Shown piece by piece: positions 33,449-61,761 of a stretch of 64,000 bases of DNA (its first letter is position 1; the number at the start of each line of letters is the position of its first letter). Origin of the DNA: Arabidopsis thaliana. Taxonomy: Eukaryota > Streptophyta > Magnoliopsida > Brassicales > Brassicaceae. Under the pieces are notes generated by a model. The model was not told the origin of the DNA. It worked only from the letters and a program-made list of their open reading frames with translations, and made no database searches. The stretch covers positions 22,181,971 to 22,245,970 of the forward strand of contig NC_003070.9 of assembly GCF_000001735.4 (NCBI RefSeq), written 5' to 3'. A program made the translations under genes and the position numbers.

Positions 33449-33976
33449 TCATTTATAGTAACCTCGAATGTGCTGGGCCAACATGTAGTCAAATGGTTGT
33501 GGATACAGACGTCGAATCTTGCAGATCACGTAATCTTGTTTCCACGTACTTGCAAACCTATACTCTTCCATCGCCCAGATTCGTCTATCTCTTACTCTTC
33601 TCTTCTCCTTTTCCAAGAACTTAAAAACCGATTTCGGTTTCCGATCAGTTTCACAGAACTTATAAACCTTCTTTAACCCTAGAATCTTCCCGGTCGTCAC
33701 CGACTTGATCACTCTATCACGACCGATGATTCTCCAACAACCGTATTCACATCCATCGGTTAAACCTGAATTCACACTCCGATTAACGAAGAAGTATCGT
33801 CCGAAGTGTAGGATTATAGGATCTCTAGTAACGAAAAGCGTCCACGGATTCTTGCAGTACACGTCTTCGCTTCGGAGGAAGTGGCGAGGCCAAACGTTTA
33901 CGTTATCGATCATCATCTTCAAATAATTTGCGACGATTGCTTCTTCGATTGATTGTTCACGTCTTGACTTCATCAT
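33449..33976 (-). CDS. short single-domain NAC-like protein
   Basis: A 175-aa, single-exon protein with one degenerate NAC-like fold (At1g60240 from memory). Visible NAC subdomain echoes: VANYLKMMI (like the YLKxKV of subdomain A), a WPRHF..EDVYCKNPW segment (subdomain B), GCWRIIGRDRVIKS with GKILGLKKVYKF (subdomain C/D), and RRIWAMEEYRFAS..QDYVICKIRRL (subdomain E). The canonical LPPGFRFHPTDEE opening and the KATGKDK core are lost, and no C-terminal activation region follows. It matches the first half of the double-domain proteins at 44.9-60.3 kb and so is probably the simple form of that family. Two ATGs sit in tandem at the start; the first is given. A TATA-like string lies at about 34122-34130. 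Confidence 0.8.
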   Translation of the reverse strand: MMKSRREQSIEEAIVANYLKMMIDNVNVWPRHFLRSEDVYCKNPWTLFVTRDPIILHFGRYFFVNRSVNSGLTDGCEYGCWRIIGRDRVIKSVTTGKILGLKKVYKFCETDRKPKSVFKFLEKEKRRVRDRRIWAMEEYRFASTWKQDYVICKIRRLYPQPFDYMLAQHIRGYYK

Positions 33977-44599: not shown

Positions 44600-46410
44600 T
44601 AATTTTTGTGTGATGTTTGTCATTACTGGTAATATCATTGTTTATATTCGATTAGCGTTATTTTGTGTTTAATCACAAACCTCTCATCTCACAACCACAA
44701 ACCATGGAAAATAAGAATATTAACTAGTCTCTAAAGCAATTAATAGAGAGAATAAGAAAACTATATTGTTGAAATACTAGAAACAAAAAAAAAAAATAAA
44801 GACAAAGAGTAATTTTTTTTTTTTTTTGATATACCCTATCAGCTAATGTGACCAGTCTCAGTAAGAACACATCGAAGTGCTACGGAGTATGACTTCCAGA
44901 GTAAAATCTCCTTGTTACCTTTGGTTGAGTGGGATTAAGAACTTGATAACGCATAACACTTTATCCTTCTTATTATTTTCGTCAGGCCTATACTCTTCTA
45001 TGAACCAAGCAGTTTTCTTCGGATCTTCTCCTTCACAAACATTTCTTGGTTCCTCATTTTCCGAAAATTGAAAAATCCTCCTGTAACCAAGAACCTTACC
45101 TTTTGACTTGATAACTCTATGACCTTCTACGATCCTCCAGCAACCACCACCATCACATTCATCGGTTTTACCACAAGTCTTTGTCCTGTTAGCAAAGATA
45201 CAGGTTCCGAACTCTTTAAACTTGTCATCTTGAGGATCCACAAGCGTCAACGGATGCAAACGGTACACATCGTTGGTAACGTAGCTAGGCCAAGTGTTTC
45301 CATCATAACCGATTATCGTCTCCAGATAAAATGCACCCTCCGCTTCTGAATCGAAGAAACAGACTCCATAAGCTGGCAACAATTGATTTGCAGGAAGCGG
45401 TGATCTAGTGGAGAGACACGAGAAATGCTTGGCTAGCAAGAAACTGATTTCAGCATCGAACATAAACCGAATCTTGCAAATCACATGATCTTGCTTGCAG
45501 TTCAAGTTATTGTTAAGCCTGTACTCTTCCATTACCCAACTTCTCTTGTATTCTCTAGGTTTCTTCTTTAGGCAGAACTTGAGAATCTTCTTGAACCCTA
45601 GAATCTTCCCAGTCTCCTTCGATTTTATCAGTTTATCACGACCAATGATCCTCCAGCAACCAGATTGACATCCATCGGTTCTACCACAATTCTCTGTTCG
45701 TGGTTTAACGATCACGAATCTAGGGCTCTGAGAATGAAACTCCTCATTTGGATTCTTGTTGAACACGTCTACATCTTCGATGAAGTGATCAGGCCACGAA
45801 TCCCCGTTAACGATCATACGCTTCAGATAACGTGAGATGATTACATCGTCTTCTGCTTTGATCAGTTCTTCTTTGATTAGCCAATAAGTTGCTTCGTCTT
45901 CTGCTTTCATCAGTTCGTCTTTGATAAGCTCATAAGTTGCTTCGTCTTCAACTTTCATTGGTTCGTCCTCATAAAGAAACTAAATCGATCAAGAGAGAGA
46001 GAAAGATTAAACGCAAAAATGAGTGTTGTTTCTTGGAGATGAAGCGAAGAAGACTCATGTTCATAAATGTGCTTTTAAGTTAATGGCAACCGTTATATCT
46101 AAGTTTCGTATTGATTAATTTACCCTTGTTGATCTCTTTTTATTTCTCAACTACCCTTCTTCCACGGATATTTTTTCACTGTTTATCCAAAATTTGTGAA
46201 TGGATTAAAAAAAAGAAGGGAAACACCTCAATAATGTAACCAAAAAGTCTACATAGTTGTCAACCAGAGTTTCCAAGTTATTTAGACCATATAATTGTCT
46301 CAAGTCAAGCACCAACCTTTGATAATGTTTGTCCTTATTCATAAAACGGTCGGCGCATCTTCATCATATCAAGTTAGAATAGCATAAGAATATACAGAAA
46401 TAGATACTCC
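44600..46410 (-). repeat. diverged fourth copy of the NAC cluster unit
   Basis: The 3' flank (44600-44790) shares phrases such as GCGATTAG/CGATTAGCGTTATTTTG, CTCTCCTCTCAC-like and CACAAACCA...ACTAGTCT with the flanks at 47.5, 57.2 and 59.0 kb. The NAC-like gene lies inside. The upstream flank at 46220-46410 (CACCTCAATAATGTAA..AAGTC, TTCCAAGTTATT-AGACCATATA, TCTCAAGTCAAGCACCA) recurs at 51325-51500 and, inverted, at 63870-64000. Confidence 0.65.
44915..45958 (-). CDS. NAC023: double NAC-like domain protein (probably ANAC023)
   Basis: A 347-aa, single-exon protein made of two degenerate NAC-like folds. Fold 1 (about 35-180): VIISRYLKRMI, WPDHFIEDVDVF, a TDGC..GCWRIIGRDKLIKS core, GKILGFKKILKF, WVMEEYRL and DHVICKIRF. 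Fold 2 (about 200-345) repeats the order: WPSYVTNDVYRLHPL, GTCIFANRT..TDEC, CWRIVEGHRVIKS, GKVLGYRRIFQF, WFIEEYRP and KVLCVIKF. The N-terminus carries a short tandem repeat, EDEATYELIKDEL / EDEATYWLIKEEL / EDDVIISRYLK, where its paralogues have one unit. No C-terminal activation region is present. Whether it binds DNA is unknown, because most canonical NAC contact residues (KATGKDK) are altered. The symbol is from memory of At1g60280. Confidence 0.8.
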   Translation of the reverse strand: MKVEDEATYELIKDELMKAEDEATYWLIKEELIKAEDDVIISRYLKRMIVNGDSWPDHFIEDVDVFNKNPNEEFHSQSPRFVIVKPRTENCGRTDGCQSGCWRIIGRDKLIKSKETGKILGFKKILKFCLKKKPREYKRSWVMEEYRLNNNLNCKQDHVICKIRFMFDAEISFLLAKHFSCLSTRSPLPANQLLPAYGVCFFDSEAEGAFYLETIIGYDGNTWPSYVTNDVYRLHPLTLVDPQDDKFKEFGTCIFANRTKTCGKTDECDGGGCWRIVEGHRVIKSKGKVLGYRRIFQFSENEEPRNVCEGEDPKKTAWFIEEYRPDENNKKDKVLCVIKFLIPLNQR

Positions 46411-46545
46411 GATCCACATGTCCTTCACTTTCCACGTGAGTACCACACAGTACAATACTCCACATGTGAAATTAGTAGTGTGGACGTGTGGTAAAACACG
46501 GATTTAGGTTATTTACTTTGATTGTCTAATGTCTAATTGATAAGA
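45959..46545. other. promoter and spacer upstream of the first double-NAC gene
   Basis: Contains the conserved cluster promoter phrase (ATTAATTTACCCTTGTTGATCTC at about 46116) and then the flank repeat noted above. No separate gene. Confidence 0.5.
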
Positions 46546-46794
46546 TTCAGATTTTTTTTTTCTTTGACCAATAGTTCCAAATCTTTGCCCCATAATTTAC
46601 TGATCACTGGTTTCGTTTGGCGTAATGTGGAGAATCAAGACCAACTATTGATAATATAATTTTTATCTGTTGGGCATTTTTGATCCTAGTCCATGACATT
46701 CTTTGAATATCCTTAAAAACAGAGGAAAACATTTGAAGGGAGCTAAAAAGTCTTATTATTGAATATTGAAACATAAAGACCTACAAGAAAAATG

Positions 46795-47340
46795 TCTCAT
46801 ATTCATTTGTTCTCTTTTGCTTCTTCTTCGACTTTGTTCTTATTCATCAACTGGGCCAATCTCTCTGCAAGATTTAGCCTAGTCGCAGGAGACACCCCAT
46901 TACTTCCAATGATTGATTAAAGAACTGCCAACAGCTTATTCTCGACCATAGCTTGTCCAGTTGTAGGAATGATATCGTCTTTAGAAAACGCAATCTGCAA
47001 AACATTTTAATTCACAACAAACATATAGTAGTGAGAACGTGTAGCTATGCACACTTTTATGACATTGTTTTAAAAGCCAATTTCAAGTTTTTTTTTTGAA
47101 ATTTGAAAGCGTTTATATAAAAGCGTTTATGCTCATTATGCTCACTTTCTCCTTGGTATCCTGGTTTGGTGTCTAAGGTGCAGCGACAATCTTTTCCAGT
47201 GGCTCTACCCAACTCCTCTTCTCCTTCACGGTTCAAGACGACACCGCAACTCTTGGTTTATACATGGCGACGACGGTGTGGCAACAACAAGCCTTGGCAA
47301 AGTTGATGACCTAACCTATCTCTTAATTCTCTGTTTCTTC
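46795..47340 (-). pseudogene. captured exon fragment of an unrecognised gene (copy 1)
   Basis: On the minus strand an acceptor (TGTTTTGCAG, about 46995) precedes IAFSKDDIIPTTGQAMVENK and LLAVL, an in-frame TAA, then SIIGSNGVSPATRLNLAERL and AQLMNKNKVEEEAKENK, ending in a stop near 46792. Further upstream on the same strand (47160-47340) lies a second coding-like piece. I do not recognise the parent gene. The retained acceptor shows that genomic DNA, not a retrocopy, was captured. A second copy lies at 56.1-57.0 kb. Confidence 0.55.
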
Positions 47341-47809
47341 CTGGAAAAATATATGACGGCTATATGACGGCTATATGTAAACAACGATATACACACGAGC
47401 ACACACACGAAATCGCAAAACAACACAACAACGATGATCTCTGCTAATCAGATAAAAACAAATGTCAATTTTTCTGCCCATTGATCTTCATTTATAGATT
47501 ATTAGGGTTGCTGATTCAGAAACATGTAGTTGGTTTCAGATCATATCAATTCTATACGTTTAGGCTCAACTTGTCTCTGATGTTTTTGATTGCTGCTAAT
47601 ATGGTTGTTTACATGCGATTAGCAAATTGCAGCGACGACAAAAAAAGTCTCTCCTCTCACTACCACAAACCACAAGAAATAAGCATACTAGTCTTTAAAC
47701 CATATTGAACAGAGAAATAAGAAACACAAAGACTCATGAATCTATAGATGTGTGTATCTAGAATATTCGTAAGATACTAAGATGATCACAAAAACCAAAG
47801 TAAAGTATC

Positions 47810-48778
47810 CTATCTATCATAAGTCAACTTGATAACGCACAACACTTTATTCTGCTTCACGTTTTTGCTAAGCCTATACTCTTGTATAGTCCAAGTTACC
47901 GTCACTTCTTCTCCATCACAAAGATATATTTGTCTCACCGTTTCATAGAACTCAAATACCTTCTTGAAACCAATGACCTTTCCGAAATTTGACTTGATCA
48001 GCTTATCACCGTGCAGGATCTTCCAGTAACCACCATCGCATTTATCAGTTTCACCACAAGTCTTGTTAGCGAAGATGCAGGTTCCGTAATCATTAAACAT
48101 CCGATCTTGAAGATCCACAAGCTCCAATGGATGCAGACAGTACACGTTGTTGGTAACGTAGCTAGGCCACTCGTTTCCTTCCGAAGTCATTATCGCGTCC
48201 AGATAAAATTCATCCTCCTCTTGTGTATTGGATAAATAATATCCATAAGATGGCAACAGCTCATTTTCAAGAACCGATTCTGATGTAGTGTAGAAATGCT
48301 TGCTTAGCAAGAAACTAATTTCAGCTTCAAACATAAACCGAATTTTGCAAATCACATGATCTTGCTTCCAGTTCAAGTTATTGGTAAGCCTATACTCTTC
48401 CATTACCCAACTTCTCTTGTAGTCTATAGGTTTCCTCTTTAGGCAAAACTTGAGTATCTTCTTGAACCCTAGAATCTTCCCAGTCTCCTCCGACTTTATC
48501 AGTTTATCACGACCAATGATCCTCCAGCAACCCGAATCACATCCATCGGTTTTACCACAAGCCTCTGTTCGTGGTTTAACGATCACGAATCTAGGTCTCT
48601 CAGAATTGAACACCTTATCTGGATTCTTGGTGAACACGTTTGCGTCTTCGATGAAGTGATCTGGCCAAGAATCTCCGTTAACGACCATACCCTTCAGATA
48701 ACGTGAGATTATTACTTCGTCTTCTGAGTATAACAGTTCGTGTTTGATTAGATCATAAGCTGCGTCGTCGTCCTCCAT
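47810..48778 (-). CDS. double NAC-like domain protein (copy A)
   Basis: 322 aa, single exon, starting MEDDDAAYDLIKHELL at 48778. In-frame sequence upstream is not conserved in the paralogues, so this ATG is preferred to the one at 48958. Two degenerate NAC-like folds: fold 1 with EVIISRYLKGMVV, WPDHFIEDANVF, GCWRIIGRDKLIKS, GFKKILKF and WVMEEYRL; fold 2 with WPSYVTNNVYCLHPLELV, GTCIFANKTCGETDKC, GYWKILHGDKLIKS, GFKKVFEF and WTIQEYRL..KVLCVIK. Fold 2 keeps a closer match to the NAC GYWKATGKDK core. Probably At1g60300. It is closely related to the genes at 57.5 and 59.3 kb. Function is unknown. It is intact here. Confidence 0.82.
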   Translation of the reverse strand: MEDDDAAYDLIKHELLYSEDEVIISRYLKGMVVNGDSWPDHFIEDANVFTKNPDKVFNSERPRFVIVKPRTEACGKTDGCDSGCWRIIGRDKLIKSEETGKILGFKKILKFCLKRKPIDYKRSWVMEEYRLTNNLNWKQDHVICKIRFMFEAEISFLLSKHFYTTSESVLENELLPSYGYYLSNTQEEDEFYLDAIMTSEGNEWPSYVTNNVYCLHPLELVDLQDRMFNDYGTCIFANKTCGETDKCDGGYWKILHGDKLIKSNFGKVIGFKKVFEFYETVRQIYLCDGEEVTVTWTIQEYRLSKNVKQNKVLCVIKLTYDR

Positions 48779-49100
48779 AATGAAACTAAATCGATCAAAA
48801 AAATTATCTAGAGAAAGATCAATCGCAAGAATGAGTGTTTGTTTCTTGGAGATGAAGGGAAGAGGAAGAGAGACTCGTGTTAATAAGTTAGTGGCGACCG
48901 TTATATATAATTTTTGTGTTGACCAATTTACCCCTGATGATATCTCTTTATTTCGCAATTATGAACTACCCTTTCCTCCGCGGATAATTTTTTTGTAAAC
49001 TTTTTTTCTTCTTTTCTTCTGGTGCTTTTGTTAAAATAAATTACTGTCAGTTATACGATAGTTTTGTTTCGTTGACATATGTATAAGTAATAATCTTATT
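48779..49100. other. promoter of the copy A NAC-like gene up to the LINE
   Basis: Contains TTGACCAATTTACCCCTGATGATATCTC (about 48913), also seen before the other cluster genes. It ends where the LINE poly(A) tail begins. Confidence 0.5.
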
Positions 49101-50762
49101 TCTTTTTTTTGAATTTCATGTTAAATTAGATTCAAAAGAAAACGTTTTTACAACAAGTGCAGCTTTAATTTAGATTACAATAGCAGAGAAAAGATTAAAC
49201 TTTGATGAGTTGAGAACTTAGTGCTTTGACGCAAACCACTTTTGGAGACCACTCGCATAACGCCCATCGCCCATGAGCCTAATTGCTGATAATCGATTTC
49301 GAATCTGCTTGTCTAGCCATCCGACTAACCGAGCTGGTGGGTTAGGATCATCCCCATGCATTCTTCCATTCCTCTCTCTCCATAATGCATAGATTACAGT
49401 CTGAAACACATACCTTTGTAAAAATCCTTCTACCCGCTGGTTTTGGTGGCAAGAGACGCGCATTAGGTTCGTGTGCCAATCTGTTGAGTAGCTAGTTTGA
49501 AAAATGTTCTTAGAAGAGGTGCTCCCTAGTTTCTACCTCGGTGTGACAGAGAAAACACGTGTCTGTTGCTCCGACATTCCACATCCTCATACGGTCCCCG
49601 GTGGAGAGACGATTTAGAACCGCTAGCCACACACAAAAGGATTGCCTAGGCGTCGCGTGAGTAAACCATACTCCTTTGTGCCAAGTGATCGTGGGAGAGA
49701 TAGTTCTTAGATGATGCCATGTATCCTTGGTAGAGAAACGTGGCCGATAAGTGTCATTTATACCACGCCAAAGAATATGATCTGCTTCATCTTTACGATT
49801 CTGCATTTTTTTATTTAAAGCCTCTTCTATTTGCATGAGTAATCCGTCTCTATGCCTTCGACGACGACGCATTGTCCACGCATCCGCCACAGATTTTTGC
49901 CAATCTATTCCCAAATCAATAGCACCTCGCTCACCCACAAGATCAGATAAACGACCCAAATCAGACCAGTTATCATACCAAAATGATGTGGTTTGCCCAT
50001 TCTTGACTTCCGCTCGACATAAAGGACTTGCAACTGCCCGATATTTGAGGAGTTTCTTCCACATCCAAGAGCCTATGTGTGTTTGACAGACCAGAAGGAC
50101 TTCTGTTTGAGAAGATTTTCTTCTATCCACTTCACCCAAAGAGAGTTTCCATGAGACACTATTCTCCATATTAGCTTCAAACAACAGACATCGTTAGCCT
50201 CCTTTAAGGATCTTAGACCCAAACCACCTTCATGCTTAGGCTTACAAATCTCTTGCCATGACACCTTTGCTTTCGTTGTTTTCATTTCCTGCCCAGACCA
50301 AAGAAATGCAGAACAAATTTTATCCACTTCACGAATACAACCGCGAGGAAGTCTAAACGCTGCCATCCAAAAGTTACAAATACTCCAGAGTACTGAACTT
50401 ATTAGATTCAATCTACCAGCAAAAGAGAGAAATCTTGCTGTCCAAGAGCCAATTCGTTGTCTTATCTTTTCAAGGAGAGGAAGGTAATCAGCTGCAGATA
50501 GACGTTTATTAACAAGGGGAAGTCCAAGATACCTTACAGGTAATGTTCCCACTGAAAACGGGTATGTAGAGGTGATCGTTTGGTGAGCTGTTGCAGACGT
50601 GCCCGCTAAAAACAGAGTCGACTTCTCCATACTTATTCTGAGTCCTGACCACAGAGCAAAGTCATTGAAAACTCGGACCACTCCATCAATTGACCGAATT
50701 TTACCATCAGAGAGAACCATGATGTCATCTGCAAAACTTAGGTGAGTGAGACCTATATTTTT
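49101..50762 (-). mobile_element. 5'-truncated LINE with RT C-terminus and zf-RVT
   Basis: The minus strand encodes the end of the reverse transcriptase (FADDIMVLSDGK, the plant LINE form of the YxDD motif), then the maturase-like region (RYLGLPLVNKRLSAADY, FAGRLNLISSVL, FLWSG, KPKHEGGLGLRSL). The zf-RVT segment follows (TPRQSFCVWLAVLNRLSTGDR, CFLCHTEVETREHLF), then LWRERNGRMHGDD. The open frame is interrupted at least twice. The poly(A) tail appears as a T run near 49106-49111. The N-terminal endonuclease and most of the RT are missing, so it is a dead 1.6-kb copy. No target-site duplication was identified. Confidence 0.9.
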
Positions 50763-53120
50763 GCAAACTTAGGTCAATAGAGGCAGTAAAATAAAATTTT
50801 CTTAATTATGAAAGCACCTTTATTTTCTTGTTCATGTTTAACACACTTTATAGCTGTTATACAGATATTTGTATCCTTAACTAATAAAATTAAAAACACA
50901 TAATAAAATAATACAAGTACATGACTGTAATAGTAGGCGAAATTCTAAATTATTGGCAATATTTAGAATTACTAATGAAATGCATGATTAGCCAACTCAC
51001 TGTTTCTTAACAGCTGATCAATATGAATATATATATATATATGGTACTAATTTACTACAACTCACTAGTTTACGTTCACCTGAAATTGGTATCATTTACA
51101 TATTTCGGGTGAGCCACGGATCTAAATCTTAAAGTCAAGTTAAAAAATCACGGATTGACTCAACATAACATACATGATTGAACGTGTCTGACCCATCAAA
51201 ACAACCCTCTATATATATAAGCCCAAATTTGCATTGCAAGTGTTCGTGCTTCTTAGATTTGAGGTTGAAACGTTGATGTTAATTATGACCTGTTTCACTC
51301 TTCTCAATTTACTTTTCTCCTACTGAATCAAACACCTCAATAATGTAATTAAAAAGTCCAAAACCAATTAATGAAGAACGCAACATCACAGATTCTCCGC
51401 ACTTAAAGTTAATTTCTGTCAAAGATTTTCCAAGTTATTAGACCATATATATAGTTGTCTTAAGTCAAGCACCAGCCTTTGTTAATGTTTGTCGCGGATC
51501 ACAAAGCATAATTTTTCTTCCCTAGCTGTTTGAAGGAAAACTTTTCTTCATCCCATCAGAAGAGAATTTGAAGAATAGTTTTAAAAGAGTTTTTGGGAAA
51601 TATATGTTTTCCGAGTAACTTCCATCTAAACCTTATTTATAAAACAATTGGCGCATCTTTGATATATACAATAGAACCTAGTTCAACTACTGACCATTAA
51701 CTTACTGCACCTTTGGTAAAGTGAAAAAGCACTCTTTACCACACAAAAAGGGTGTATATCAAATGTAACTTGGAAAGTCAATCTGAGAAAGAAGAAGTCG
51801 TTTGTTTATCAAATGTTTAGGGGATTTAGAAAAATAATAAGATAAGTGACTGATCAATACTTCTGGGCCAATAGCCGACGGCGGGAGTGTTTTCGTAAAT
51901 TTGGTCATGTGTTTATGTCTTATGTCATAACTTTAAATGATAAAATAAACTCTGCCACCAAAACGTAGAAACGAAGCAAGATATGTAGAAAAAGAGATGA
52001 AAATTTTAATATATAATTGATACTCTCAAATCTCAATGCATCGATTAACTTTTATTTGGAAGTTTGGTCTAATTTGAGTAATATTAATTCTTATATATGC
52101 AGGAACGTATGAAGGTGGGAGGGAAACACGGCGAATCTATTACAATAATGCTAAACTTAGGGCTTGACTGGTTTAACAATTAAAGTCAATACATAATTTA
52201 CTCATCAATTTTTGTGCTTGGTCGTGATGAGTAACGTTCTCTCTAACAGGGAGCATAAAGATCATTCGATTTGTAAAGTAAACCATTAGAATATCCGCAG
52301 TATCATAGGAAAAAATCAATAATATTAGATTAGAACATTTCTTCAACTCAAGAAATCTTTTTGGATCCGGTTTTGATTAGGTTTTATGTCAACCTCTATT
52401 ATATTACTTTTTTTTGTCCCTTCATTATGACTTATGAGACGTGGTGAATTGGGAGAGCATGATACTTGAAACCAAAAGAGAGTCATTATCAAAACGGACC
52501 AAAATGCCTAAACATGCTCGACTTCATTGAGCTGACTCGGCTCAGTTTAAAACGTATTGATTTTGTCATGTGCCGATTATAAAATTCCAATTCAGTTTAG
52601 TATCAACAAGTTTTATTACTTAAAAAAAGGAGTTTGCCTCGTTCATTATAACTAAATATTTTCTTTAGGAAAATACATGTCATTTGATTAGCTTCTTTTC
52701 TATTCCTTTTTATTAGTCATAGAACCAATTCTTTGTAGGTTTTCAAATAATCTTGTACGTACCTTTCCGTCTTTCTAACAGCCGTACTTTATTATTACTA
52801 ATCGTTAAACGTATACATAATAGTGCGCTACACTATTCGTATAGTATCCATACGAACGTGGATTTTCTAGTTAAAATAATCAGCAATTTTATCTACTAGC
52901 TAGATTGTTTGGTGATTTCAATTAAATCTGATCTAGCTAGAAGCACCAACTACATGGCCTATAAATATAGACTAGATTAGATAAAAAAAACTTGCTAATC
53001 AGAATCGGTTTTACACTACGTACAAATCCTAATTTTCTAGTCTAACCAATCAAACAACTTACAAAAGTTACGGTTTCAAGTTTTCTCTTTCCATCTCTGT
53101 AAAGTCAGTCTTACAATAAT
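50763..53120. other. spacer with a flank repeat, promoter of the TIR gene
   Basis: AT-rich DNA. 51320-51660 repeats the NAC-cluster flank seen at 46215-46410. A TATA-like CCTATAAATATAG lies at 52958-52970, about 150 bp before the TIR start codon. No other gene is supported. Confidence 0.55.
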
Positions 53121-55344
53121 ATGACAAAGAGTGTTAAGAAGATCCCGATGGTGGCTATCTCTCGATTCATGCAGCCTCCACAGTTCCAGGACCAGGTGTT
53201 TATCAACTTCCGAGGAGAGGAAATTCGCTATAGCTTCCTCAGCCACCTCGCTGCCGCTTTTGAACTACACGGAATAAACTTCTTCATTGACAAAGATGAA
53301 CAGAAGGGAAAAGACCTTAAACACCTTTTCAAAAGGATCAAGCAGTCGCAGATTGCATTAGCAATCTTTTCCGAAAGATATGCGGAGTCCCCATGGTGCT
53401 TGAACGAACTGGCAAAGATGAAGAAACTTGCAAAGAAGGGCAAATTAAATGTGGTTCCTATTTTCTACAAGGTGGAGGTAAATGATGTGAGACACCAAGA
53501 GGGAAAATTTGGTAGTAACTTTTGGAAGTTGGCAAAGATTTCTAGTGGTGACGAGATCAAGAAGTGGAAGGAAGCTTTGGAGTTTTTCTCTAATAAGATG
53601 GGCTTGACGTTATGTGGCAAGAGGTACTCTACATGATCTTTCTTTTTATCTAAGAGTACGTACATATATGTCACTACATGTACAGATTGTTTTCGTGACT
53701 TGTGAGTCAAGAAATAAAAGCATAACACGACACTAGCATAAAGTGATCAGCTGAAACAATTCCGTGATATTTGCAAAAGAAAAATAGAAGAATAAAGCTT
53801 CAATCATAGATTTAGAAAAATAAGAAAATGGTTTGTTTGTTTAATATGGTTTAAGAGTGTATTTTTTAGTTTTGATTTATATTCTTCTTAGATTTTAAAA
53901 TTTTTATTTGGAGCGAATTTTAAATTAAACGTTACTGAAAATGAACCCAATTAATAGTCAGTTAGTCAAGTTATATGCACCTCTGTAAAAGTTAAAATTT
54001 AGTTTTATATATTGATTTTGTTTTGACTTCCTTGTCAACTTCATATCTTAATATATAAGATATGATCCAACTTTACAAATTGTATTTACAAAGCGGCATC
54101 ATACATTCATACAAGAAAACAATTAATTAAGAGATTCATTTAGGTGAATATGATCTCAGCGAACAACCATCTACCATAACGCTTACTTTATGCATTCATT
54201 ATTAACCACTGAATTTTCTTCAATTCTCACCAAGCATTCATCGGGATAGGTAAATCTTCATACCATGATCCCAACACATTACCAATCAACAATATAGTTG
54301 ATGCATTTGTGACAACGAACAAATAAAAAAGCTCTTCATTTTCAAACCAAAACTGTTCTGATTCGGGATTCAAGCCAAAACGAAAACCAAGATTGGACCA
54401 TACATAAGAATCCACTCTTGAACCTAAAAGCACAATTGTAATGTTGTTTACCGGCGTTACTTGCCTTGAACATGACGAGCTCAAAAATAAATAAGCTTTT
54501 TAATAAATCAACCTCCAATTTTTAAAATGCTTCTCAATATGGATCATTTCTTTTTGTCTTCTGCTATAGTCAATTTAATAGATGTTAATTTATTTTACAT
54601 CATATAAGTACTAATTTGCCCGTTGTATACTAATTTACCCGTTCAACAAGACACTAACAAAAATTATATTATTGGCTGATAAGTCCTTGCTATTAATAAA
54701 AAATGGCAAGTCCAAATGATGCCTACCACGTATTTTTTTGGAACAACTTAGTTTTTTAAACATTTTCTCTCATCCCATGATATGTGTTTCGTGATTTATA
54801 GGTGTTTAAATCTGGATTCTGTTTAGTGTCAACAGCTTTTAAATTAACCTTAAAAGAGTCATTTATGAAAAATGTTGTTTACAAATGTGATATGATGTAC
54901 TTTGGTATTATTTTTCATTGCTAAGTTATATATTTTAACATTTGCACATTAAGAAATTAAATTCGGATGAATAATAGTTTTTTTTATTAATGTGACATTA
55001 CTTTTGAGGGATGTTTATTTTAATTATTGATTATCATCCATAAATATAGGCTAAATAGGCTAAAAATATAGAATTAGCATGCATAGCATTGTTTTTTTAA
55101 ATTATTTTCCTAATCAAGTATTGTTAATTTCCAGCGGAATTCTTTTTTCGCCTTGTAGAATTGACTCTTAGCTAGTGTGTCTAACTAGTTGGTTTTGGTC
55201 ATTCCTTTTCCCAGCTCAGAGGCAGATTTTGTCAAACAAATTGTTGCGGAACTGGAGAGCGTACGAAGGAGAATCCCAATAGAAGAGAGGAAGGATCATA
55301 CTCTCTATCTTTCCTCGAGAAAAAGAACTAGAGAATGCATGTAA
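53121..55344 (+). CDS. TIR-only (TIR-X) protein
   Basis: Two exons, 53121-53623 and 55215-55344, joined across AAGAG|GT..CAG|C to give CGKSSEADFVKQIV, which is the usual TIR-X continuation; total 210 aa. The TIR domain spans about 22-165: DQVFINFRGEEIRYSFLSHL (the family norm is DVFxSFRGxDxR), FFIDKDE, LAIFSERYAESPWCLNEL, VVPIFYKVEVNDVR. The Glu of CLNEL (about E96) corresponds to the catalytic glutamate of TIR NADases. NB-ARC and LRR domains are absent. The short C-terminal tail is basic (RKRTRECM). Such proteins can act as helpers in immunity or cell death; here that is inference. Probably At1g60320. The 1.6-kb intron is long for this genome. Confidence 0.82.
53624..55214. other. long intron of the TIR gene
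   Basis: A 1.6-kb AT-rich intron. A minus-strand open stretch at 54227-54484 reads protein-like (RFGLNPESEQFWFENEELF) but has no recognisable family and could be a captured fragment. Nothing else is supported. Confidence 0.5.
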
Positions 55345-55861
55345 TGAGTGGTCTCTATGAATTTTCTCACTGTGAAACGAGCAAAACAAGAAAATTCCGA
55401 TGAAAAATCAATTCAGTTCATCATACACAACAATGCCGAGATTTGGTTAAAATTATTTGCAAACTGCATTAGCATTTCTCTAATAGTAAATATACTAAAA
55501 CTGTAATTATGTGTTTACTATTTGTAAATTCAAACGTGTACATAATGGACCACACGCGTATGATGTAACGATTTGGTATATTAACATAAGATCTTTGTAT
55601 GCTTCGGAATTTCTGAATAGCCTTAAAAAGATCTAATCTAAATTCATTGTTATTCAGGGAGTTGAGTCTCAAATTTTTTATAAATTCATTAAGCTTCTAA
55701 AAACATTTTAATGACTAGAGCATCTCCAATGGTGAGAGCCCCTCATTGGCTCTCACCATTATTTCTAATATAAATTTTGCAAATTTAAAAGTTGAGAAAC
55801 TCATGAAGAGCTCTTGAATTTTAGCATCTCCAATGGTAGACTCTCATGTTCTTGAAAATTA
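55345..55861. other. spacer with MITE-like ends
   Basis: Contains AGCATCTCCAATGG twice (about 55722 and 55824), resembling the ends of the element at 42.6 kb. It runs up to the start of duplicated copy B. Confidence 0.45.
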
Positions 55862-56099
55862 AGATTTTTCTTTGACCAATAGTTCCAAATCTTTGCCCTA
55901 TAATTTATTGATCACTGATTTCGTTTGGCGTATAATGTGGAGAATCAAGACCAACTATTGATAATATAATTTTATCTGTTCGGCATTTTTTGATCCTAGT
56001 CCATGACATTCTTTGACTATTCTTAGAAACAGAGGAAAACATTTGATGGGAGCGAAAATGTCTTATTATTGAATATTGAAACATAAGACCTACAAGAAA

Positions 56100-57000
56100 A
56101 ACGTCTCATCATTTGTTCTCTTTTGCTTCTTCTTCGACCTTGTTCTTATTCATCGATCACCTGAGCCAATCTCTCTGCAAGACTTAGCCTAGTCGCAGGA
56201 GACACCCCATTACTTCCAATGATTGATTAAAGAACTGCCTCTGCCAACAGCTTATTCTCGACCACAGCTTGTCCAGTTGTAGGAATGATATCGTCTTTAG
56301 AAAACGGAATCTGCAAAACATTTTAATTCACAACAAACATATAGTAGTGAGAACGTGTAGCTATGCACACTTTTATGTTGCACACTTTTATGACATTGTT
56401 TTAAAAGCCAATTTCAAGTTTTTTTTTTGAAATTTGAAAGCGTTTATATAAATCAGCAACTAGTCATTTGTATAAGTTGAAACCGCGCGCTTCTAAATCG
56501 AGAAAGGCCCTTTTTCCCATAATAAGAACTGTTTATCGTTTATTCTTGCGCAAGAAGCAACGTGAATAACTCCTCAAGCTAAACTCGATTGAAACACTCT
56601 CAGTTCATGTATGACCCGAATCCTCCTCCTAAAACACCAATTTGAAACAGCCCTTTTTTCCTTCCTTTTCTTCCTTCTTTGCTTGTCTTTTGCTCTGCCC
56701 CATCTCCAAAATTCTTCATTTTCGTTTTGAACCTAATCTCCATTCGTAGTGGTGACGTCTCGCCTACATCTCAGCTTTCTCTCCCACGCAACCAATCGCT
56801 TTCTTTCGCTTTAGTGGATCATTATGCTCACTTTTTCCTTGGCGTGGTGTCTCAGGTGCAGCGACAATCTCCTCCGGTTGCTCTACCAAACTCCTCTTCT
56901 CCTTCACGGTGACGACACCGCAACTCTTGGTTTGTACATGGCCACGACGGTGTGGCAACAACAAGCCTTGGCAACGTTGATGACCTAACCTCTCTGTTTC
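56100..57000 (-). pseudogene. captured exon fragment of an unrecognised gene (copy 2)
   Basis: Same exon as at 46.8 kb on the minus strand: an acceptor near 56313, IPFSKDDIIPTTGQAVVENK, a stop, then SIIGSNGVSPATRLSLAERL. It also has extra small changes, including an inserted EA and a frame break near the end. Further upstream on the minus strand is a second open piece that reads GVVTVKEKRSLVEQPEEIV. The parent gene was not recognised. Both copies share the in-frame TAA, so it predates the duplication. Confidence 0.5.
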
Positions 57001-57463
57001 TTCCTGCAAAATGTTGACGGCTATATGTACATATATACACGAGGACACTCCGAAATTGCAAATCAACACAACAACAACGAAAATCATTTTATGTACCAAT
57101 TAGATAACAAAAACATGTCAATTTTCTTTCCATTGATATTTATTTATAGATTATTATAGGGTTGCTGATTCAGAAACATATAGTTGGTTTCAGATCATAT
57201 CCATTCTCTACGTTTAGGCTCAATTTGTCTCTGATGTTTGTGATTGCTGCTAATATGGTTGTTTACATGCGATTAGCAAATTGAAGCGACGACAAAAAAA
57301 GCCTCTCCTCTCACAACCACAAACCACAAGAAACAAGCATACTAGTCTTTAAACCATATTGAACAGAGAAATAAGAAACACAAAGACTCATGAATCTATA
57401 GATGTGTGTATCTAGAATATTCGTAAGATACTAAGATGATCACAAAAACCAAAGTAAAGTATC

Positions 57464-58429
57464 CTATTTATCATCAGTAAACTTGATAACGCACAACAAT
57501 TTATTCTGCTTCACGTTTTTGCTAAGCCTATACTCTTCTATAGTCCAAGTTACCTTCACTTCTTCTCCATCACAAAAATATCTATGTATCACCGTTTCAT
57601 AGAACTCAAATACCTTCTTGAAACCAGTGACCATCCCGAAATTTGACTTGATCAGCTTATCACCGTGCAGGATCTTCCAGTAACCACCATCGCATTTATC
57701 AGATTCACCACAAGTCCCGTTAGCGAAGATGCAGGTTCCGTAACTTTGAAACATCACATCTTGAAGATCCACAAGCTCCAATGGATGAAGACAGTACACG
57801 TTGTTGGTAACGTAGCTAGGCCAATCGTTTCCTTCCGAAGTCATTATCGTCTTCAGATAAAATTCATCCTCCTCTTGTGTATTGGATAAATATCCATAAG
57901 ATGGCAATAGCTCATGTCGAAGAAGTGATTCTGACGTAGTGTAGAAATGCTTGGCTAGCAAGAAACTAATTTCTGCTTCAAACAAAAGCCGAATCTTGCA
58001 AATCACATGATCTTGCTTCCAGTTCAAGTTATTGGTAAGCCTATACTCTTCCATTACCCAACTTCTCTTGTATTCTATAGGTTTCCACTTTATGCAAAAC
58101 TTGAGAATCTTCTTGAACCCTAGAATCTTCCCAGTCTCCTCCGACTTTATCAGTTTATCACGACCCATGGTCCTCCAGCAACCAGATTCACATCCATCGG
58201 TCTTACCACAAGCCTCTGTTCGTGGTTTAACGATAACGAATCTAGGTCTCTCAGAATTGAACACCTCATTTGGATTCTTGGTGAACACGTTTGCGTCTTC
58301 GATGAAGTGATCTGGCCAAGAATCTCCGTTAACGACCATAGGCTTCAGATAACGTGAGATTATTACTTCGTCTTCTGAGTTTAACAGTTCGGATTTGACT
58401 TGATCATAAGCTGCGTCGTTATCTTCCAT
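57464..58429 (-). CDS. double NAC-like domain protein (copy B)
   Basis: 321 aa, single exon, beginning MEDNDAAYDQVKSELL. It has the same two-fold layout as copy A and is nearly identical to it. Fold 1 has VIISRYLKPMVV, GCWRTMGRDKLIKS and WVMEEYRL. Fold 2 has WPSYVTNNVYCLHP, GYWKILHGDKLIKS, MVTGFKKVFEF and WTIEEYRL..KLLCVIKF. Differences from copy A are scattered substitutions with the frame fully kept, which suggests selection or a very recent duplication. Probably At1g60340. No C-terminal transactivation tail. Function is unknown. Confidence 0.82.
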   Translation of the reverse strand: MEDNDAAYDQVKSELLNSEDEVIISRYLKPMVVNGDSWPDHFIEDANVFTKNPNEVFNSERPRFVIVKPRTEACGKTDGCESGCWRTMGRDKLIKSEETGKILGFKKILKFCIKWKPIEYKRSWVMEEYRLTNNLNWKQDHVICKIRLLFEAEISFLLAKHFYTTSESLLRHELLPSYGYLSNTQEEDEFYLKTIMTSEGNDWPSYVTNNVYCLHPLELVDLQDVMFQSYGTCIFANGTCGESDKCDGGYWKILHGDKLIKSNFGMVTGFKKVFEFYETVIHRYFCDGEEVKVTWTIEEYRLSKNVKQNKLLCVIKFTDDK

Positions 58430-58719
58430 AATGAGATAAAATCGATCAAGAAAAAGATCTATAGAGAGAGAAAGATCAAACGCAAGATCGAGTGTTTTGT
58501 TTCTTGGAGAGCGAAGAAGAAGTGAGACTCATGTTGAAACTTTAGTGGGGACCATTATATCTTTACGTAGTGACCAATTTACCCTTGATGATGTCTCTTT
58601 ATTTCGCTACCACCCTTCGTCCACGGATATTTTGACTTTGCTATAATGGATAAAAAATTTATAAACTTTTTTTTTTGTTTTTCCTGGTCTGCTTAAATTA
58701 GTATCAGCTTAAAATATAT

Positions 58720-60480
58720 GATAGTTGTTTCGTTGACATATGTATAAATATAATGTTAAAACGGATCATATTAGACCATGGCATTTTATATCCTAGTCCA
58801 TGGCATTCTTTGAATATTTCTTAAAACAGAGGAAAATATTCTTTCTCTCTTAAGTCTCTGGCAACCAAAAAGGCTACATGTGCATATACACGAGAAATCA
58901 ACACAACAACAATCTCTGCTTAGCAGATAAAAAAACATGTCAATTTAATTGATCTTCATTTAATTTATAGATTGTTCGGGTTGCTGATTCAGAAACATGT
59001 AGGTTGTTGTCGAATCATATGTACATGTTTGGTTACATAAGGCTCAATTTGTCTCTGATGTTTGTGATTGCTGCTAATATCGATTGTTTACATGCGATTA
59101 GTGTTATTTTGGGTTTAAAATATTGCAGCGACAAAAAAGCCTCTCCTCTCACAATCACAAACCACATGAAAGAGAGAAAAAAGCACACTAGTCTCTAAAT
59201 CATATTGAACAGAGAAATATAAACACAAAGACTATCGATATATGTTTTAAAGAGAATGTCCTCAAGATACTAAGATGATCATAAAATCCAAAGAAAAGAT
59301 TCTTAGTTATCATAAGTAAACTTGATAACGCACAAGAATTTATTCTGCTTCACGCTAAGCCTATACTCTTCTAGAGTCCAAGTTACCTTCACATCTTCTC
59401 CACCACAGAAGTATCTTTCTTTCTCCGTTTCATGAAACTTAAACACCTTCTTGAAACCAATAACTATCCCGGACTTTGACTTGATCAGCCTATCACGGTG
59501 CAAAATTTTCCAGTAACCACCATTAATGCATCTATCGGTTTTACCACAAGTCTTGTTAGCGAAGATGCAGGTTCCGTAATCATTAAACATCCGATCTTGA
59601 AGATCAACGAGCTCCAATGGATGCAGACAATACACATTGTTGGTAACGTAGCTAGGCCAATCGTTTCCTTCAGAAGTCATTATCGTCACCGGATAAGATA
59701 CATCCTCCAATTGCTTATCTGATGAAAGGAATCCGTAAGCTGGCAACAGCTCATTTCGAGGAAGTGATTCTGATGTAGTGTAGAAATGCTTGGCTAGCAA
59801 GAAACTGATTTCAGCTTCAAACATAAACCGAATCTTGCAAATCACATGATCTTGCTTCCAGTTCAAGTTATTGGTAAGCCTATACTCTTCCATTACCCAA
59901 CTTCTCTTGTATCCTCTAGGTTTCCTCTTTAGGCAGAACTTGAGAATCTTCTTGAACCCTTGAATCTTCACAGTCTCCGTCGATTTTATCGGTTTATCAC
60001 GACCCATGATCCTCCAGCAACCAGTTTCACATCCATCGGTTTTACCACAAGCCTCTGTTCGAGGTTTAACTATCACGAAGCTAGGGCTCTCAGCATCGAA
60101 CTCCACATTTGGATTCTTGTTGAACACGTCTGCGTCTTCGATGAAGTGATCAGGCCATGAGTCTCCGTTGACGACCATACGCTTCAGATAACGTGAGATT
60201 ATTGCATCGTCTTCTGCGTTTAAGAGTTCGGCTTTGAGTAGATCAAAAGCTGCATCTTCCTCCATAATGAAACTAAATTGATCAAGAAAAATATGGGATC
60301 TAGAGAAAGAAAGATCAAACGCAAGAATGAGTGTTTGTTTCTTGGAGACGAAGCGAATAGGAAGAGAGTAGAGAATAAATGTGCTTTTAAGTTAGTAGCG
60401 ACCGTTATTTATAATTTTCGTGGTGACCAATTGACTCTTGATGATCTCTCTTTATTTCGCAACTTTATTTCCCTCTTTAA
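58720..60480 (-). repeat. segmental duplication copy C (shorter unit)
   Basis: Repeats the GTTTCGTTGACATATGTATAA phrase of 49067-49087 (58730-58750), then the GTTGCTGATTCAGAAACATGTAG flank, the NAC-like gene and its promoter. It lacks the captured exon fragment, so it is a shorter or older unit than A and B. Confidence 0.75.
59303..60265 (-). CDS. NAC024: double NAC-like domain protein (copy C, probably ANAC024)
   Basis: 320 aa, single exon, MEEDAAFDLLKAELLN. Two degenerate NAC-like folds: fold 1 with AIISRYLKRMVV, WPDHFIEDADVF, GCWRIMGRDKPIKS, GFKKILKF and WVMEEYRL; fold 2 with WPSYVTNNVYCLHPLELV, GTCIFANKTCGKTDRC, GYWKILHRDRLIKS, GFKKVFKF and WTLEEYRL. It differs most from its neighbours in the linker (SSDKQLEDVSYPVT). 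The symbol is from memory of At1g60350. From general knowledge, ANAC024 is listed in the NAC superfamily, but its activity is unknown to me. The frame is intact. Confidence 0.82.
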   Translation of the reverse strand: MEEDAAFDLLKAELLNAEDDAIISRYLKRMVVNGDSWPDHFIEDADVFNKNPNVEFDAESPSFVIVKPRTEACGKTDGCETGCWRIMGRDKPIKSTETVKIQGFKKILKFCLKRKPRGYKRSWVMEEYRLTNNLNWKQDHVICKIRFMFEAEISFLLAKHFYTTSESLPRNELLPAYGFLSSDKQLEDVSYPVTIMTSEGNDWPSYVTNNVYCLHPLELVDLQDRMFNDYGTCIFANKTCGKTDRCINGGYWKILHRDRLIKSKSGIVIGFKKVFKFHETEKERYFCGGEDVKVTWTLEEYRLSVKQNKFLCVIKFTYDN

Positions 60481-60777: not shown

Positions 60778-61761
60778 TTAGCTCCTGTTATCTCGAGGAT
60801 TCTGGTTTGCTGTTTCTTCTGGACTAACCCTTTGGTATCTTGCTCTAAATGGCCAAATGTTACCGAGTTGCATCCACCTTGGACGCCTTCTTTCAGGCAT
60901 GTCTTGTCTAATAGGATTGCTCCTTTCTCGAGATTCAGCAACGGTGTTGACAAGTGGCAGGTCACGGCGGCAGATAGGGCAAGAATTGTTAAGCCTAAGC
61001 CACGGGACTATACAATCTTTATGGTAAATATGTTTACATGGTAATTCCGTTGCGTCCCCACCAACAATGAATTCTTCCATGCACACTGTGCATTGGGACA
61101 TGTCGTTAGTTAGATGTTGTGGTGTTATTTTCACAGATGGTAGGGAATTAATGGTGGGTTCTGACGCAGGTGGTGGTCCAGGCCTATCGTCTTGTGTTAG
61201 TTGTTCAATCAGCTGCTCTAAGCTTGATGCTCCAGTAAAGTAATCATGTGAGTTCACATGCCGTGGTGGTGCTTGATTTGGTGGCGCAATTATGTTTCCG
61301 AGTGGACTAGTCGGATTATTGGGCCGGAGAATAACATATGTTCTTCTTGGTAGAGGTAAACCACCATTGTTAACATTGTCAAGGCTGTGTCGTCTTCGAT
61401 GTTGCGGTCGGGGTCTTGATTCAGGTTCCAAGATGTTTCTGGATCTTGCCCTAAGAAATGGGTCTGCACCAAACCTACCTATGGTTGCAGGCTCAAACAT
61501 GAGCGAGAGAGCTTCGAGAAGACGAGCCTCAGGAGAAGCATCAAAAGGCGGAGTAGCATGGTTGAAAGTAAACCGAGGCCGTTGTCTCGTTTCAATCTCA
61601 ACGACAAATTGCCTCAAACATCGAGGACAGGCGATCTCTGATGGGTTAGAGGATGCAATTCTGACCATACGATCACAATGGTAGCACCAGTAGAGACCAA
61701 AAGTCCTAAATGCTCCATTGGGTGCACTATCGGTCCGTGTTATTGGCTGACTCAATGACAT
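60778..61761 (-). CDS. zinc-ribbon/RING-H2 E3 ubiquitin ligase
   Basis: 327 aa in one exon. An N-terminal zinc ribbon (C26, C29, C45, C48; WCYHC..CPRC) is followed by a Pro/Arg-rich linker and a RING-H2 finger with a full ligand set: C224, C227, C242, H244, H247, C250, C261 and C264 (CTVCMEEF, LPCKHIYHKDC, PWL, SCPICR). The layout matches the RDUF/CIP8-type cytosolic or nuclear RING ligases, which pass ubiquitin from an E2 directly to substrate. The C-terminus is Arg/Pro-rich. Start is the first ATG. Probably At1g60360. The gene is single-copy in this window and sits beside the duplicated block without being part of it. Confidence 0.92.
   Translation of the reverse strand: MSLSQPITRTDSAPNGAFRTFGLYWCYHCDRMVRIASSNPSEIACPRCLRQFVVEIETRQRPRFTFNHATPPFDASPEARLLEALSLMFEPATIGRFGADPFLRARSRNILEPESRPRPQHRRRHSLDNVNNGGLPLPRRTYVILRPNNPTSPLGNIIAPPNQAPPRHVNSHDYFTGASSLEQLIEQLTQDDRPGPPPASEPTINSLPSVKITPQHLTNDMSQCTVCMEEFIVGGDATELPCKHIYHKDCIVPWLRLNNSCPICRRDLPLVNTVAESRERSNPIRQDMPERRRPRWMQLGNIWPFRARYQRVSPEETANQNPRDNRS

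Follow-up and report, generated by a model that had tools for sequence, protein, structure and literature searches.

Two-domain NAC-type proteins encoded by a gene cluster of Arabidopsis thaliana: candidate protein-binding adaptors with altered DNA-contact and dimerisation residues

Background

What might a protein do that carries two NAC-type domains in a single chain and ends shortly after the second? The question is raised by a stretch of 64,000 nucleotides of Arabidopsis thaliana (RefSeq assembly GCF_000001735.4, contig NC_003070.9, positions 22,181,971 to 22,245,970 of the forward strand; the whole stretch is called the window here, and positions are counted from its first letter). Four minus-strand genes in the window encode proteins of 320 to 347 amino acids (aa), each with two such domains, and a further gene encodes a single-domain relative of 175 aa. 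Canonical NAC transcription factors bind CGT[A/G] DNA as dimers. A sequence-only reading of the window had proposed that the tandem arrangement mimics a NAC dimer within one chain, or acts as a decoy that blocks NAC dimers. The reading that we prefer, and to which we give an even chance, is that the genes encode functional tandem 'pseudo-NAC' proteins, which would work by binding other proteins through two modules and not as NAC dimers that bind DNA.

An Arabidopsis cluster of five intronless NAC genes, AT1G60280, 300, 340, 350 and 380, is described in passages of PMC4488383 as being of unclear origin, with very divergent domains and little-known functions. The four double genes of the window, together with a fifth copy just beyond its end, are very probably these five genes. 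The names below are putative and follow from cluster order against the five-gene list of that paper.

44915..45958, minus strand: double NAC-like gene, 347 aa, an open frame with NAM matches; by order AT1G60280/NAC23
47810..48778, minus strand: double NAC-like gene, 322 aa, starting at an ATG within a 382-codon TTG frame; by order AT1G60300
57464..58429, minus strand: double NAC-like gene, 321 aa, the query for the structural model and the fold search; by order AT1G60340
59303..60265, minus strand: double NAC-like gene, 320 aa; by order AT1G60350/NAC24
33449..33976, minus strand: single-domain relative, 175 aa, with one NAM match and in the same clade as the N- and C-halves of the double genes; presumably AT1G60240

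Results

Each of these chains carries two NAC-type domains, as the sequence-only reading had claimed. The Pfam NAM profile (PF02365, curated cut-off 27 bits) matched two stretches in each of the four large window proteins, with whole-protein scores of 88.3-95.2 bits, and a single stretch in the 175-aa protein (46.2 bits), which agrees with the one domain that had been assigned to it. When the large proteins were cut at the linker, all eight halves exceeded the cut-off alone, the N-halves at 55.5-61.6 bits and the C-halves at 35.9-39.4 bits.

45413..45958, minus strand: N-half of the 347-aa protein, NAM 61.6 bits
44918..45412, minus strand: C-half of the 347-aa protein, NAM 37.8 bits
48287..48778, minus strand: N-half of the 322-aa protein, NAM 55.5 bits
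47813..48286, minus strand: C-half of the 322-aa protein, NAM 38.6 bits
57938..58429, minus strand: N-half of the 321-aa protein, NAM 56.8 bits
57467..57937, minus strand: C-half of the 321-aa protein, NAM 35.9 bits
59777..60265, minus strand: N-half of the 320-aa protein, NAM 58.3 bits
59306..59776, minus strand: C-half of the 320-aa protein, NAM 39.4 bits; matches the ORE1 NAC domain (PDB sequence)

The four large proteins end 17-23 residues past the last NAM-matched residue and so have no long tail, which bears out the claim that an activation tail is missing. Alone among the copies, the 347-aa protein repeats an acidic stretch of about 17 residues at its N-terminus (45854-45958).

A search of the genome with the 321-aa protein gave 53 matches, headed by five full-length copies that were 66-88% identical to the query. 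The fifth of these lies at C1:22246488-22247405, just beyond the window end, so that the four copies counted earlier are the full number for the window and the genome holds five. The match to the fifth copy spans both halves (the Pfam scan covered the four window proteins), and in all five copies both NAC domains lie in one open frame, which suggests that they are coded without introns. The next best match was the 175-aa gene (49% identity). The closest match outside the cluster was a 55-aa C-half fragment on C3 with two stops (E 5e-9), and the remaining matches had E values of 5e-7 and weaker, many of them at sites that a wider genome search gives as NAM exons. The 175-aa protein as query gave 11 matches, which were itself and ten halves. 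No further remnants of the cluster genes were seen in the window at E<=0.01.

The predicted fold points the same way. An AlphaFold2 model of the 321-aa protein, made from an alignment of five rows, was of moderate confidence (predicted local distance difference test, pLDDT, 60.9; predicted template-modelling score, pTM, 0.43) and showed a helix, a short helix and five strands in the same order in both halves, with two more helices at the ends of the N-half. When the whole model was compared with the PDB by Foldseek, all 13 matches at E<=0.001 were NAC domains, namely those of ANAC019, ORE1 or rice NAC1, with template-modelling scores by target of 0.59-0.71. A comparison of both halves with NAC crystal folds had been proposed as a check; on this, the order of elements is the same in the two halves, while the matches, uniformly NAC, are those of the whole protein and leave the half aligned unspecified. 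At the level of sequence, the C-half of the 320-aa protein matched the NAC domain of ORE1 among PDB sequences with E 6.2e-4 (other NAC structures reached just E 0.03), and a profile built from nine window halves matched four NAC sequences with E values from 3.7e-9 to 2.5e-8.

To judge from alignment, the two arginines on which NAC function is reported to depend have been lost in nearly all halves. In ANAC019, R88 is stated to be essential for DNA binding and R19 to be important for protein interaction (PMC6749658). We compared 11 halves (five N-halves, five C-halves and the single-domain protein) with 40 other NAC stretches of the same genome, picked from 164 matches to include divergent ones. 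By the ANAC019 alignment, with a chain offset of three, R88 is the seventh residue ahead of the W in GYWK. Arginine stands there in 35 of the 40 other NAC exons and aspartate in nine of the 11 halves; in two C-halves that are longer by one residue this spacing falls on E and on R, or on D once the insertion is removed. R88 is thus kept in at most one of the 11. The columns for R19, E26, D24 and P16 rest on a single alignment of divergent N-termini. In it, R19 is kept in one half, that of the single-domain protein, against arginine in 24 of the 25 N-termini compared from other NACs (in the remaining one the position lies outside the stretch compared). E26, which we take to be the partner of R19 in the dimer surface, is kept in 3/11 halves, and R19 and E26 occur together in none. 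In none of the eight window halves does the NAM profile match begin before position 9, and the N-halves show no match to the LPPGFRF dimer strand; the C-halves keep it in a partial LLPxYG form. A C-x5-C pattern, noted by eye in 10 of the 11 halves (58190-58210 and equivalents), takes the place of the stretch that bears Arg in canonical NACs ahead of the DNA strand, its first Cys being missing in the 175-aa protein. It might be a zinc or other metal site, or form a disulfide.

The frames of these genes are held open by selection. The five copies contain no stop, align over their full length and differ by whole-codon gaps only. In a neutral simulation along their tree, with a majority-codon start sequence, transition bias fixed at 2 and indels left out, the mean was 19.7 stops and all five frames stayed open in none of 2000 runs; halving the branch lengths gave 10.8 stops and again 0/2000 fully open runs. 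Because stops do not interrupt matches in the genome search, and it turned up no full copy that is broken, the five copies were not chosen for being intact. The earlier argument from intact frames to function thus gains a measure, about 20 stops being expected and none seen.

Constraint is stronger on the N-half than on the C-half. In one-ratio fits, the ratio of nonsynonymous to synonymous rates (omega, or dN/dS) was 0.57 for the N-half (likelihood-ratio test, LRT, against 1 = 6.51), 1.01 for the C-half (LRT 0.00) and 0.82 for the whole gene (LRT 1.97, not distinguishable from 1). Over the 10 pairs, omega was 0.50-0.96 for the N-half, 0.49-1.86 for the C-half and 0.51-1.18 for the whole, with 0.94 between the 322- and 321-aa genes, which are the closest pair. 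A dN/dS near 1 with frequent stops across accessions, which had been named as grounds for giving up the proposal, is found in its first part in the C-half, but stops are absent from the five copies of this genome and the N-half is below 1. Sites in the C-half are not uniform: model M1a, which puts 30% of them at an omega of about 0.1, improves on M0 by 10.0 log units. The upper site class of the N-half reaches only 1.41 and is unsupported, and the site list printed for it is not meaningful. We do not claim positive selection in the C-half: the LRT of M2a against M1a, 17.2, was not robust, falling to 5.19 once columns up to three positions from a gap were removed, to 8.54 when the most divergent copy was left out and to 1.95 under both exclusions.

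All of the halves have a common origin. A tree of 51 rows and 81 columns put the 11 halves in one divergent clade (100/99), within which the C-halves formed one group of five (99/96) and the N-halves another (97/90), with long branches flagged by the program. A tree of 23 rows and 95 columns, with 12 less divergent outgroup rows, gave 100/100 for the 11 halves, 98/99 for the C-halves and 87/84 for the N-halves. On the question whether the 175-aa gene is a truncated copy or a progenitor, its placements relative to the N- and C-halves in the 23-row tree gave approximately unbiased (AU) p values of 0.425 and 0.445. In the whole-gene tree the 322- and 321-aa genes form one pair (100), and the 320-aa gene and the fifth copy form another (88); the tree of the N-half alone places the fifth copy elsewhere, with a support of 52. 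A likely history comprises an internal duplication within a single-domain ancestor and tandem duplication of the gene, perhaps in this order. Similarity between copies extends about 165-200 bases upstream among four of the five, with only about 35 for the fifth copy, and from about 80 to about 680 bases downstream, depending on the pair.

The genes, earlier described as adjacent, do form one cluster, but two other elements lie between copies, the first of them after the second double-NAC gene and before the third.

49218-50720, minus strand: remnant of a LINE-type non-LTR (non-long-terminal-repeat) retroelement with reverse transcriptase; zf-RVT 67.1 bits, RVT_1 below cut-off
53121-53636: TIR-only gene, 171 aa, TIR 123.4 bits

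A gene of 327 aa with a RING finger and a zinc ribbon (60778-61761), ordinary-looking, adjoins the cluster. The C-half fragment on C3 lies about 1 kb from an open reading frame that by eye resembles the LINE remnant end at 49218-49463, the two C3 features being at 640-978 and 2057-2245 of the C3 stretch compared; there was no Pfam match and no DNA match, and a link through retro-copying is a guess. An Rfam scan at the gathering threshold and a tRNA scan were both empty.

Discussion

With the DNA-gripping and dimer arginines gone from nearly every half and the domains and frames kept, the simplest reading is that of a two-module protein binder. Each chain would then consist of two NAC-type domains that lack most of the residues for DNA grip and pairing, and canonical DNA binding would not be expected of it. 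The constrained N-half and the looser C-half suggest one fixed and one changing partner, such that the slowly evolving N-half may hold the former and the fast C-half may meet the latter. A role in female reproductive cells can be envisioned from one member, as the reporter of AT1G60280/NAC23 is described as active mainly in synergids and more weakly in the egg (PMC3236301). Taken to its full extent, this would make a tandem pseudo-NAC family, perhaps Brassicaceae-wide, that no longer binds DNA or pairs, with a fast-evolving C-half that follows a changing partner in the synergids or the egg. A transcription-factor fold would then have been turned into a reproductive protein-recognition module, a picture that we consider unlikely.

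Several observations weigh against the adaptor reading. All 11 halves retain the W with a K or R after it, D24 is kept in 8/11 and P16 in 5/11, these being all five C-halves. In the stretch surrounding the DNA strand the halves carry a net charge of 0 to +6, which overlaps with the 40 other NACs, where it ranges from -7 to 8 with a median of 4.5. The single-domain protein, at net +17, is strongly basic, and both halves of the fifth copy are basic too (+6 each); on this evidence, some DNA binding is possible. The two-partner idea is drawn from the rate difference alone, and a C-half omega of 1 could equally mean relaxed constraint. The structural model, moderate in confidence, gives nothing firm on how the two halves pack.

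The two mechanisms proposed in the sequence-only reading are less well supported than its claims on domains and frames. If the chain were a single-chain dimer mimic, its halves would pack as a NAC dimer and bind paired NAC sites constitutively; two NAC-type domains in one chain would suit this, as would the partial LLPxYG strand and P16 of the C-halves, but R88 is missing in at least 10 of the 11 halves, R19 in 10, the pairing of R19 with E26 in all, and the start of the profile match at position 9 or later, with LPPGFRF unmatched in the N-halves, tells the same way, so that we hold this to be quite unlikely. A decoy, or dominant-negative, would pair with ordinary NAC factors and keep them off DNA, a part for which a protein without a long tail and with altered DNA-contact residues is suited; since those 10 halves lack R19, which is published as necessary for contact between NACs, another surface would be needed, and we see this as an unlikely explanation as well. 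Dimer mimic and decoy are thus disfavoured, as they need surfaces that are absent in their known form, although a new surface is possible. The sequence-only reading is therefore partly supported, being right on domains and integrity and over-read on mechanism.

A DNA-binding factor of changed specificity, whose altered strand reads another sequence, would account for the W and next basic residue in every half and for the basic fifth copy and single-domain protein. An acidic residue at the position of the key arginine in 10 of the 11 halves argues against it, as does the net charge of the C-halves (-9 to +6), three of the five being acidic and one neutral, and we hold it to be unlikely. Finally, the genes could be decaying duplicates without present function, open by chance, as one might read from a C-half omega of about 1, a whole-gene value that does not differ from 1 and the 0.94 of the closest pair. 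The stops expected under neutrality and not seen (0/2000 runs), the N-half omega below 1, the non-uniform sites of the C-half and the full-length alignment of five frames with whole-codon gaps speak against decay, and we regard it as very improbable.

The genes are listed in NAC catalogues and handled in the literature as transcription factors. AT1G60340 and NAC24 are hits for meristem length in a genome-wide association study and are cited as suggesting that NACs act in root growth (PMC9697774). In rapeseed, a homologue of AT1G60340 counts as a candidate for pod number on the grounds of being a NAC factor (PMC5225578). If the cluster proteins do not bind NAC sites, such readings mislead, and the cluster would offer a clear example of a fold for DNA binding that has been put to another use. 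AT1G60300 and AT1G60240 occur in expression tables or lists (PMC11511487, PMC13029538, PMC9957447).

Relation to known NAC proteins

The cluster and the two-domain arrangement are already known, and what is added here is the residue loss, the clade of the halves and the selection results. The genes had been put forward as an under-described system, which is fair for their function, but the cluster and two-domain NACs are both in the literature. The cluster of PMC4488383 resembles the one described here in its five consecutive full copies at the same location, single open frames and very divergent domains; the phrase 'two NAC' has 0 occurrences in its main text, and its passages on the cluster are silent on the two-domain build and on the lost residues. 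In the passages of the literature on these genes, supplementary files aside, we found no report of the loss of DNA-contact and dimer residues.

Proteins with two NAC domains, as in the window genes, are counted in at least 77 of 160 species in PMC7147800, the passages of which give counts only: five double-domain NACs for A. thaliana in Table 1 (at least four in the text), between 1 and 17 in each of 12 other Brassicaceae rows in part of that table, Aethionema included, and further ones in many plants outside the Brassicaceae. The five of A. thaliana are presumably the cluster genes, and the proteins of the other species may be their orthologues. Atypical NACs with two NAC domains are also mentioned in PMC10651149.

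The closest solved structures, by sequence and by fold, are the NAC domains of ANAC019, ORE1 (ANAC092) and rice NAC1 (PDB 1UT4, 3SWM, 7XLJ, 3ULX). In these canonical proteins a single domain is combined with a regulatory region at the C-terminus, and R19, R88 and the LPPGFRF strand are all present. Where a canonical NAC transcription factor thus joins one N-terminal NAC domain to a variable regulatory C-terminus, the proteins of this cluster have two domains and no long tail.

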